From Actinomyces sp. HPA0247 (GTDB lineage Bacteria; Actinomycetota; Actinomycetes; Actinomycetales; Actinomycetaceae), in the NCBI GenBank assembly GCA_000411415.1, contig KE150451.1:138872-202871 (forward strand): DNA of 64,000 nucleotides, read 5' to 3'. Positions 48,029 to 51,522 of the stretch are shown in pieces. Both the position numbers and the translations under genes were made by a program. How positions within the stretch are numbered: position 1 is the stretch's first letter; the number at the start of each line of letters is the position of its first letter. A model generated the notes under the pieces. That model was not told where the DNA came from, did no database searches, and saw nothing but the letters and a program-made list of their open reading frames with translations.

Positions 48029-50134
48029 ATGACGACAGCAGACCAGAAGGCCTGGGAAGGTTTCGTAAAGGGTAACTGGTGCGATGAAATCGACGTTCGT
48101 GATTTCATCCAGCTGAACTACACCCCGTACGAGGGCGATGCCTCGTTCCTGGCAGGGCCGACCGAGAAGACCCTGCGCGTGTGGAACACTCTCGAAGAGA
48201 AGTACCTCTCCGAAGAGCGCAAGGTGCGCATCCTCGACGTTGACACCGACACCCCCGCCGACATCGATGCTTTCAAGCCCGGCTACATCTGCGAGGACGA
48301 CAACGTGATCGTCGGCCTGCAGACCGATGCCCCCCTGAAGCGCGCGATGATGCCGAACGGCGGCTGGCGCATGGTCGAGACGGCCATCCACGAGGCCGGC
48401 AAGGAATACAACCCCGAGGTGAAGAAGATCTTCACCAAGTACCGCAAGACCCACAACGACGCTGTCTTCGATATCTACACGCCGCGCATCCGCGCAGCTC
48501 GTTCTTCCCACATCATCACCGGCCTGCCGGACGCCTACGGCCGTGGCCGCATCATCGGCGACTACCGCCGTGTGGCGCTCTACGGCGTTGACCACCTCAT
48601 CGCCGAGAAAGAAAAGGACAAGGATCGCTACGCCGACCAGCCCTTCTCCGAGCACTGGGCACGCTACCGCGAGGAGCACTCCGAGCAGATCAAGGCCCTC
48701 AAGAAGCTGAAGAACCTCGCTGCCTCGTACGGCTACGACATCTCCGGCCCCGCCACCAACGCGCACGAGGCCGTGCAGTGGACCTACTTCGGCTACCTGG
48801 CCTCCGTGAAGTCTCAGGACGGCGCCGCCATGTCGATCGGCCGCCTGTCGGGCTTCTTCGACTGCTACTTCGAGCGCGATCTGAAGAACGGCACGCTGGA
48901 TGAGTCCGGCGCACAGGAGATCATCGACGCCCTCGTCATCAAGCTGCGCATCACCCGCTTCCTGCGCACCATCGCTTACGACCAGATCTTCTCGGGCGAC
49001 CCCTACTGGGCCACCTGGTCGGACGCCGGCTTCGGCGACGACGGCCGTACGCTGGTCACCAAGACCTCCTTCCGCCTGCTTCAGACGCTGGTGAACCTCG
49101 GTCCGGCCCCCGAGCCGAACATCACCATCTTCTGGGACGAGAACCTGCCCCGCGGCTACAAGGAGTTCTGCGCCCGTATCTCGATCGAGACCTCCTCGAT
49201 CCAGTACGAGTCCGATCCGCAGATCCGCGCCCACTGGGGTGACGACGCCGCCATCGCATGCTGCGTCTCCCCCATGAAGGTCGGCAAGCAGATGCAGTTC
49301 TTCGGCGCGCGTGTGAACGCCGCCAAGGCCCTGCTCTACGCCATCAACGGTGGCCGCGACGAGATGAGCGGCAAGCAGGTCATGGAAGGCTACGAGCCCG
49401 TCCAGGGTGACGGCCCGCTCGACTTCGATGACGTGTGGAAGCGCTACGAGGAGATGCTGGACTGGGTCGTTGGCACCTACGTCGAGGCCCTCAACATCAT
49501 CCACTACTGCCACGATCGCTACGCGTACGAGGCCATCGAAATGGCTCTGCACGACGCTGAGATCGTCCGCACCATGGGCTGCGGCATCGCAGGCCTGTCC
49601 ATCGTTGCCGACTCGCTGGCCGCCATCAAGTACGCGAAGGTTTACCCGATCCGCGACGAGACCGGCCTGGTCGTCGACTACCGCACCGAGGGCGACTTCC
49701 CGACCTACGGCAACGACGATGACCGCGCCGACGACATCGCCGCGACCGTCGTCCACACCGTCATGGACAAGATCCGCGCGATCCCCATGTACCGCGACGC
49801 GATCCCGACCCAGTCGGTCCTGACGATCACCTCGAACGTCGTCTACGGCAAGGCCACCGGTTCCTTCCCGTCGGGCCACCAGAAGGGCACCCCCTTCGCC
49901 CCCGGCGCGAACCCGGAGAACGGCATCGACACGCACGGCATGGTTGCCTCCATGCTGTCGGTCGGCAAGCTGGACTACAACGACGCACTCGACGGCATCT
50001 CGCTGACGAACACGATCACCCCGCAGGGCCTGGGCCGCTCCAAGGAAGAGCAGATCCAGAACCTGGTCGGCATCCTCGACGCTGGCTTCGTTCCGGACGA
50101 TTCCTGCGCCTACGACGGCACCAAGGGCTACTGA
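48029..50134 (+). CDS. pflB: Pyruvate formate-lyase catalytic chain lacking its glycyl-radical domain
   Basis: This 701-aa enzyme converts pyruvate and CoA to acetyl-CoA and formate in anaerobic fermentation. The catalytic pair Cys411-Cys412 is present in DAAIACCVSPMKVG, and the substrate-binding barrel reads as a normal PflB. However, the protein stops at about the point where E. coli PflB (760 aa) enters its C-terminal radical domain, with no RVSGYAV motif. The final residues (GILDAGFVPDDSCAYDGTKGY) diverge from the family and end at a clean stop followed by a hairpin. The radical domain is encoded separately at 50257. The enzyme therefore must work as a two-chain complex. RBS GAGGAAGA precedes the ATG. 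Confidence 0.93.
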   Translation: MTTADQKAWEGFVKGNWCDEIDVRDFIQLNYTPYEGDASFLAGPTEKTLRVWNTLEEKYLSEERKVRILDVDTDTPADIDAFKPGYICEDDNVIVGLQTDAPLKRAMMPNGGWRMVETAIHEAGKEYNPEVKKIFTKYRKTHNDAVFDIYTPRIRAARSSHIITGLPDAYGRGRIIGDYRRVALYGVDHLIAEKEKDKDRYADQPFSEHWARYREEHSEQIKALKKLKNLAASYGYDISGPATNAHEAVQWTYFGYLASVKSQDGAAMSIGRLSGFFDCYFERDLKNGTLDESGAQEIIDALVIKLRITRFLRTIAYDQIFSGDPYWATWSDAGFGDDGRTLVTKTSFRLLQTLVNLGPAPEPNITIFWDENLPRGYKEFCARISIETSSIQYESDPQIRAHWGDDAAIACCVSPMKVGKQMQFFGARVNAAKALLYAINGGRDEMSGKQVMEGYEPVQGDGPLDFDDVWKRYEEMLDWVVGTYVEALNIIHYCHDRYAYEAIEMALHDAEIVRTMGCGIAGLSIVADSLAAIKYAKVYPIRDETGLVVDYRTEGDFPTYGNDDDRADDIAATVVHTVMDKIRAIPMYRDAIPTQSVLTITSNVVYGKATGSFPSGHQKGTPFAPGANPENGIDTHGMVASMLSVGKLDYNDALDGISLTNTITPQGLGRSKEEQIQNLVGILDAGFVPDDSCAYDGTKGY

Positions 50135-50143
50135 TCCACCATC

Positions 50144-50180
50144 GGCGGGGATCGATGCGTCACCCGTATTGATCCCCGCC
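50144..50180 (+). promoter_or_regulatory. Intercistronic hairpin between the two PFL chains
   Basis: A perfect 10-bp stem GGCGGGGATC (50144-50153) with GATCCCCGCC (50171-50180) and a 17-nt loop starts 10 bases after the pflB stop codon. No U tract follows. It may partly terminate, protect the upstream mRNA or set the ratio of catalytic chain to radical chain. Confidence 0.6.
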
Positions 50181-50256
50181 CACCACACACGTGGGTGTGC
50201 CGCACCGCGACCCACCCAATCCGGTACCCCCGGAGTTTCACAAAAGGAGAAATGTT

Positions 50257-50508
50257 ATGGCAACCAAGACCTACGAAGAGCGCCTCGCCGACATGAAGGC
50301 CGCCCGCGAAGAGCGCGGCGACAAGGATGGCCTCTACCACGCGAACATCAACGTTCTCGAGGAGTCCACGCTGAAGGACGCCATGGAGCACCCCGAGAAG
50401 TACCCGAACCTGACCGTTCGCGTTTCCGGCTACGCCGTCAACTTCGTCAAGCTCACCCGTGAGCAGCAGCTGGACGTTCTGTCCCGCACCTTCCACCACT
50501 CGGCCTGA
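50257..50508 (+). CDS. grcA: Stand-alone glycyl-radical domain of pyruvate formate-lyase (GrcA-like)
   Basis: This 83-aa protein matches the C-terminal domain of PflB and the spare-part protein GrcA/Yfi[24 protein letters not shown] followed by [28 protein letters not shown]. Gly58 in RVSGYAV is the expected radical site. It is shorter than E. coli GrcA (127 aa); the first ~25 residues are a charged helix instead. The ATG has a strong AAAGGAG site 7 bases upstream, so it is a separately translated gene and not a frameshift. Because PflB here has no radical domain of its own, this subunit should be required, not a repair part. pflA follows. Confidence 0.9.
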
Positions 50509-50643: not shown

Positions 50644-51522
50644 ATGTCGCAGACCCTCGCTCTCCCCACGTTCCGCGAGCAGGACTTCCAAGCTCCCCAA
50701 TCACGTACCGTCGGCGCTGGCGTCGAGGGCCTGGAGGAGATCACGGATCTGGAGCGCTCCGAGCGCCTGCGCCGCATGCGTGAGGGCACGCTGGGGTCCA
50801 TTCACTCCTGGGAGCTCGTCACCGCCGTTGACGGCCCCGGTACGCGCATGACGGTGTTCCTCAACGGCTGCCCGCTGCGTTGCCTGTACTGCCACAACCC
50901 CGACACGTTCCTCATGAAGGACGGCGCTCCCGTGTCTGACACGGAGCTCCTCTCCCGCATCGCGCGCTACCGCCGTATTTTCCGCACGACGAAGGGCGGT
51001 ATCACGCTGTCCGGCGGCGAGGTCCTCATGCAGCCCCAGTTCGCCAAGCGCATCCTGATGGGCGCCAAGGAGATGGGCGTGCACACCTGCATCGATACCT
51101 CCGGGTTCCTGGGTGCGAACTGTGACGACGAGATGCTCGACGCGATCGACTTGGTGCTCCTGGACGTCAAGAGCGGCAACGAGGAGACCTACAAGAAGGC
51201 AACGGGACGCGCCCTGGCACCCACGATCGAGTTCGGTGATCGCATTGCCGCGCGCGGTGGCGCGACGCGCATCTGGATTCGTTTCGTCCTCGTTCCGGGC
51301 CTGACCGATGATCCGGAGAACGTACGGCAAGTTGGCGAGATTGTCTCGCGCTGGAAGGACGTCATCGATCGTATCGAGGTCCTGCCCTTCCACCAGCTGG
51401 GCAAGGACAAGTGGCATTCGCTGGGTCTGGACTACCAGCTGGAGGACACGAAGGCTCCCACGCCCGAGGCTACGGAGGAAGTGCGCAACTACTTCCGGTC
51501 GCTGGGCTTCGAGGTCCACTGA
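50644..51522 (+). CDS. pflA: Pyruvate formate-lyase activating enzyme
   Basis: This 292-aa radical SAM enzyme places the glycyl radical on PFL. The cluster motif is Cys76-x3-Cys80-x2-Cys83 (NGCPLRCLYCHNP), the GGE motif is in TLSGGEVLMQ, and VLLDVKSGNEETY and LVPGLTDD are also typical. It carries ~50 N-terminal residues before GSIHSWELVTAVDGPG, where the E. coli enzyme (246 aa) roughly begins. The ATG follows AGAAGGAA. Its substrate should be the separate 83-aa radical chain, probably within the complex with PflB. Confidence 0.95.
   Translation: MSQTLALPTFREQDFQAPQSRTVGAGVEGLEEITDLERSERLRRMREGTLGSIHSWELVTAVDGPGTRMTVFLNGCPLRCLYCHNPDTFLMKDGAPVSDTELLSRIARYRRIFRTTKGGITLSGGEVLMQPQFAKRILMGAKEMGVHTCIDTSGFLGANCDDEMLDAIDLVLLDVKSGNEETYKKATGRALAPTIEFGDRIAARGGATRIWIRFVLVPGLTDDPENVRQVGEIVSRWKDVIDRIEVLPFHQLGKDKWHSLGLDYQLEDTKAPTPEATEEVRNYFRSLGFEVH

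Follow-up and report, generated by a model that had tools for sequence, protein, structure and literature searches.

The pyruvate formate-lyase (PFL) locus of Actinomyces sp. HPA0247 most probably encodes an obligate two-chain enzyme, with the core and the glycyl-radical domain encoded by separate genes. The locus lies within a 64,000-nucleotide stretch of contig KE150451.1, referred to here as the window, and its genes follow one another on the + strand in the order pflB core, small gene, and pflA. The features of the locus are as follows.

48029..50134, + strand: pflB core, 701 aa, stop codon TGA, with Cys411-Cys412 and without the glycyl-radical loop and C-terminal helix
50144..50180, + strand: stem-loop in the gap between core and small gene, 16-bp stem and 5-nt loop
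50243..50249, + strand: likely ribosome-binding site of the small gene, AAAGGAG, 7 nt 5' of the ATG
50257..50508, + strand: small subunit of 83 aa with the glycyl-radical site Gly58 (RVSGYAV), matching GrcA2
50257..50328, + strand: conserved N-terminal extension, residues 1 to 24 of the small chain, with no counterpart seen in fused relatives
50644..51522, + strand: pflA, PFL-activating radical SAM enzyme, 292 aa (TIGR02493, 293.7 bits; cut-off, 231.75)

The core matches positions 1 to 682 of the 744-position full-length PFL model TIGR01255 and passes this model alone (999.6 bits; cut-off, 994.2). It contains the adjacent active-site cysteines of PFL in the motif ACCVS (Cys411-412). A glycyl radical site was sought within the core chain and not found, the chain stopping at model position 682, and the site is located instead on the separate 83-aa chain. 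The small open reading frame (ORF) matches positions 685 to 743, and the two chains jointly span TIGR01255 with zero overlap. The break is clean, with almost no residues missing between them. An earlier note on this DNA had described a 701-aa core that ends before the glycyl-radical domain, and an 83-aa gene 122 nt downstream with its own AAAGGAG site, followed by pflA; the first description agrees with the extent of the model match, and the second is read directly in the sequence. The small chain passes the NCBI model for GrcA2, an autonomous glycyl radical cofactor (NF008341; 165.9 bits; cut-off, 145), and falls below the cut-off of the E. coli GrcA model (TIGR04365; 81.9 bits; cut-off, 170).

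We assessed what else the genome offers for pyruvate cleavage. The assembly (2,430,444 bases in 3 contigs) is scored 100% complete, and it yields a single PF02901 match, to the window core; the PF01228 model matches twice, once in each half of the window locus. No second or full-length PFL was found beyond the window locus in these whole-genome searches, a check that the earlier note had proposed. The small chain thus has no full-length PFL to repair in this genome and is expected to be required. A PDH E1 gene is present (1300.7 bits; cut-off, 859.9), and the best match in a search for PFOR, at 22.8 bits, stays far below the cut-off of 911.35. The organism has a PDH route to acetyl-CoA beside its only PFL locus found, and this combination is compatible with a facultative anaerobe.

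The GrcA2 match, along with the GrcA3 annotation of a similar small gene in Collinsella, lends itself to another reading, in which the small chain acts as a spare part of the GrcA type beside a core that has decayed or is otherwise employed. We regard this as very unlikely, given that the genome holds no full-length PFL to repair, that the core by itself exceeds the cut-off for full-length PFL, and that the small chain reaches less than half of the TIGR04365 cut-off. The same conclusion follows from a comparison of 59 split pairs, 43 of the window type and 16 of a second type described below (the incomplete or broken L134, L137, and L201 were left out): ACCVS is present in all 59 cores. RVSGYA is present in all 59 small chains and in none of the cores. 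The variant in which the small chain serves a hidden full-length PFL was rejected, as the PF01228 and PF02901 searches of its own genome returned none. A two-chain PFL is well supported by these sequence comparisons. The claim that the small subunit is obligatory stands in part: both halves are intact and no full-length PFL exists elsewhere in the genome, from which the essentiality of the small chain is strongly implied rather than observed.

The arrangement of the genes bears on whether the split is genuine. We fetched 39 loci because their PFL row seemed split or odd, and 37 of them, window included, share the order of core, small ORF of 81 to 85 aa, and pflA, a proportion that reflects this selection and is not a frequency. 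Within the 37, the pflA of locus L078 is cut by the contig end. The exceptions are L097 and L099; the latter lies at the end of its contig and comprises a small chain and pflA. In L097, the match to a PFL core (62% identity) stops at residue 644, and the 7.9 kb fetched contain no match to a small chain. The core and small gene of the window are 122 nt apart and in different frames (offset of 2,228 nt, 2 mod 3), and the corresponding gaps across the 37 loci range from -1 to 227 nt. Every small ORF of these loci begins with ATG, and Shine-Dalgarno-like sites are usual before the small ORF in relatives when inspected by eye. A sequencing error, readthrough, or frameshift joining the two frames could draw on the 11 of 37 loci in which both genes share one frame, but this share is about the third expected by chance and indicates separate translation of two genes. 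The variable gaps, the start codons with their usual Shine-Dalgarno-like sites, and the recurrence of the split in many separate assemblies likewise make such an artifact extremely improbable, and we rejected it on the frame, gap, and multi-assembly evidence.

The hairpin in the window gap has a z score of -4.16 when the full 128-nt stretch is compared with 200 dinucleotide-shuffled versions. In a survey of gaps of at least 60 nt with 60 dinucleotide shuffles, the z score fell below -2 in 15 of the 19 gaps between core and small gene, in 15 of the 17 between small gene and pflA, and in 13 of the 20 that separate a fused PFL from pflA, compared with 5 of the 37 regions preceding the core. A wider set that includes the second split type, scored with simple shuffles, gave 27 of 49 core/small gaps of at least 35 nt. 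We considered the gap hairpin as a device specific to the split and rejected it, because hairpins also precede pflA, in fused operons too. The gap hairpins of pfl operons are strong and recurrent and lack a T-run by eye; they may govern the relative amounts of the products.

To survey the taxonomic distribution of the window-type split, here called type A, we collected TIGR01255 matches in the family of the window organism, which are present in 196 of 213 genomes. Among the matches listed (main row, 150 genomes), sorting by hand gave 118 split-type rows from 20 genera, ending at position 676 to 702, and 32 full-length rows from 11 genera, reaching the model end; both kinds occur in two genera. 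Reading 35 of the 118 split-type rows at the sequence level showed a split in all 35, which bears out the earlier claim of a natural split and speaks against a sequencing error. One of the 118, G560, gives a single row through a stop, and two genes at the sequence level (L065). The 46 family genomes outside the listed rows include 39 that match at least twice and whose best E-values range from 1e-294 to 1e-298; we infer that these are probably split as well, since the E-values resemble those of split cores and not of fused ones. The remaining seven have only weak TIGR01255 matches: six encode another glycyl-radical enzyme, large and full-length, and one has a short fragment; no lone small chain was found in them among the matches listed. 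Loci L233 to L238, from six family genomes without a window-type PFL, carry a different glycyl-radical enzyme with open frames of 776 to 910 aa. For Varibaculum cambriense, the available part of the published description reports no PFL (PMC4177395).

The split PFL is not peculiar to the window organism, nor to its family. Of 394 genomes sampled from the class, 47 have a match, and 40 of these show a full-length row; the other seven comprise the window, two further splits (G081 and G376; L096 and L098), and four partial cases. The same split is found in Corynebacterium wankanglinii, Corynebacterium xerosis, other Corynebacterium, and Dermabacter hominis. A contig scan, in which 80 of 585 confirmed stretches were read, revealed 8 split (L133 to L140) and 70 fused PFLs, 1 broken PFL (L201), and 1 cut by a contig end (L205). 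Interrupted PFL core genes were seen in a Trueperella metagenome-assembled genome (L137, among the eight split) and in Clostridium sp. DSM 8431 (L201). The small chain of the Trueperella genome closely resembles that of L087, from a genome of genus g169, in keeping with Actinomycetaceae as the family of the window organism.

We constructed phylogenies of the cores to evaluate the origin of type A. In a quick tree of 82 rows, type A forms one 32-row clade with the fused PFLs of Bifidobacteriaceae and Cellulomonas citrea, with Bifidobacteriaceae as sister and C. citrea within type A. A more careful tree of 41 rows places both fused groups inside type A, and type A stands alone in 0 of 200 bootstrap trees. 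None of four alternatives was rejected by approximately unbiased (AU) tests: type A alone (P = 0.057), type A with C. citrea (P = 0.163), type A with Bifidobacteriaceae (P = 0.126), and type A alone after removal of the Bifidobacteriaceae rows (P = 0.123). Re-fusion within the type A clade is therefore suggested at most, as the AU tests reject no alternative. The fused PFL of C. citrea (L151, 2967-5198) has a core 82% identical to the split core of the window, and it may represent such a re-fusion. Fused PFLs lie beside or inside the split clade in either case, so the split has not been uniformly kept.

A search with the GrcA2 model across 396 genomes of the phylum found 66 with a match. Among the matches listed, the best stand-alone chains outside the window's class fall in two families, and fused enzymes also match. 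All 21 such loci (L111 to L131) carry a truncated core directly upstream of the small chain, and refetching the whole core for 16 loci of this kind, here called type B, confirmed it in 16 of 16. The type B break falls at about E. coli residue 680/683, about 15 residues before that of the window, so that the small chain carries the helix NLVSMIDGY, and the core ends in a new tail that is often Cys-rich by eye. The type B cores form one clade of 11 rows (SH-aLRT, 100) apart from the window type in the tree of cores. The differing break points and clades indicate at least two fissions. The type B loci are L111 to L131, L213 to L228, and L232; in the RefSeq annotation, Collinsella aerofaciens has pflB and grcA3, with no pflA within the stretch shown. 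The 739-aa chain of PDB entry 38lb aligns with a type B core to residue 738 and is not among the matches of either small chain, window or type B, and for these reasons it looks like a natural split core of type B. A second entry, 38la (687 aa), aligned to residue 685, ends near the same place and seems to lack the glycyl-radical domain.

The two halves of a type A enzyme differ from a fused relative at their junction. In the fused PFLs of Bifidobacterium saguini (L141) and C. citrea (L151), the core helix NLVGILDAG is followed by at most three residues and then a 10-residue segment, whereas in split members the core stops soon after this helix and the small chain opens with about 24 extra residues. 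In 29 small chains, R9 of the extension is invariant and T5, M13, and R17 are at least 90% conserved. The extension thus seems to be under selection, and it is kept across genera and families. By analogy, it may be a docking element that replaces the lost covalent link: in the available sections of a study of E. coli PFL cut at residue 695 (PMC8683613), binding of YfiD to the cut enzyme was too weak to measure and activation was 32-fold lower, and removal of the N-terminal half of YfiD weakened binding too. Once activated, the cut enzyme with YfiD had activity equal to the wild type, according to the same sections. The extension is helical in the predicted structure at a pLDDT of about 45, a value that leaves docking unsupported by the prediction. 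When the Dermabacter pair is modeled as a single chain, the model can be superposed on E. coli 2pfl with 747 residues matched at 1.5 Å, with model residues 14 to 822 matching 2pfl chain residues 4 to 758; 30 of the 43 rows in its alignment are full-length PFLs, which biases the model toward the full-length fold.

In the two-chain enzyme that we favor, the core would hold the substrate sites and the Cys pair, and the 83-aa subunit would complete the fold with its last strand, the loop bearing the glycyl radical, and the C-terminal helix. The radical would be placed by PflA on Gly58 of the small chain and passed on from there to the Cys pair of the core, the two chains presumably assembling and working as one enzyme through the N-terminal extension in place of the lost link. 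Speculatively, oxygen would cut a loose 9-kDa chain, the active site would stay free of a tethered stub, and a fresh chain could thus drop in. Faster recovery from oxygen through the split is plausible. A working example may already exist: across four media, Actinomyces naeslundii released 0.56 to 2.53 µg of formate per million cells in 20 h (PMC6493303, Table 1, the portion available), and its PFL is presumably split. If so, this formate would show a working split PFL.

More broadly, Actinobacteria may at least twice have put the radical cofactor of PFL on a disposable, exchangeable subunit. The head of the type A small chain and the tail of the type B core would then be evolved docking devices that solve the weak binding of the artificially cut E. 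coli PFL, and oxygen would destroy only the small chain, to be replaced without displacing a tethered stub. We offer this tentatively, at a likelihood somewhat below even. A neutral fission, giving a permanent two-chain complex without exchange or oxygen benefit, is a serious possibility that likewise falls a little short of an even chance. Both states are viable, as shown by the two or more fissions at different points and by the fused enzymes next to the split clade; 40 of the 47 matching genomes in the class sample keep a full-length row, and neutrality would leave the same pattern as an oxygen benefit. The retention of the small-chain extension across genera and families is less readily explained by neutrality, which in any case accepts the two-chain enzyme and differs on the benefit only.

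The small chains have already been named by NCBI as the autonomous glycyl radical cofactors GrcA2 and GrcA3, as though they were spare parts, and the structure of a type B core seems to have been deposited (PDB 38lb). We found no paper on natural PFL splits, judging by titles and the starts of abstracts in a search that lay mostly outside subscription papers. The two-chain PFL would provide a natural, stable counterpart of the artificial pair of truncated PFL and YfiD, so that the requirements of a detachable radical domain, for binding as well as for activation, could be read from evolution. It also affects annotations in well over a hundred species, in which many GrcA2 and GrcA3 genes would encode enzyme subunits and not repair parts. 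Recovery of a glycyl-radical enzyme from oxygen by the swap of a 9-kDa chain becomes directly testable.

Compared with known systems, the split PFL shares its fold, Cys pair, and Gly radical site with E. coli PflB (TIGR01255; PDB 2pfl/1h16), which is a single chain of 759 aa. The alignment to full-length PflB and GrcA proposed in the earlier note bears out the split: the window core aligns with PflB residues 9 to 695 and the small chain with residues 699 to 758, so that the chain is broken at about E. coli 695-699, a boundary almost identical to that of the artificial cut at residue 695. E. coli GrcA/YfiD (TIGR04365; PDB 6owr) is a stand-alone chain with the same glycyl-radical domain, and residues 24 to 82 of the window small chain align with its residues 68 to 126. 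However, GrcA is longer (127 aa), its N-terminal half does not align with the small-chain extension, and it repairs full-length PflB cut by oxygen, as stated in the available sections of PMC8683613, whereas the window genome has no full-length PFL. Phage-borne GrcA-like proteins such as RB49 vs.6 are small radical domains too; 1,533 of 50,697 phage records match, the RB49-like rows at about 50% identity over 96% of the query, and a spare-part role is stated for T4 Y06I in those same sections (PMC8683613). A further parallel is the Collinsella-type pair of pflB and grcA3, in which, as in the window, an 83-aa radical chain comes after a truncated core, but which breaks earlier and belongs to a separate clade.
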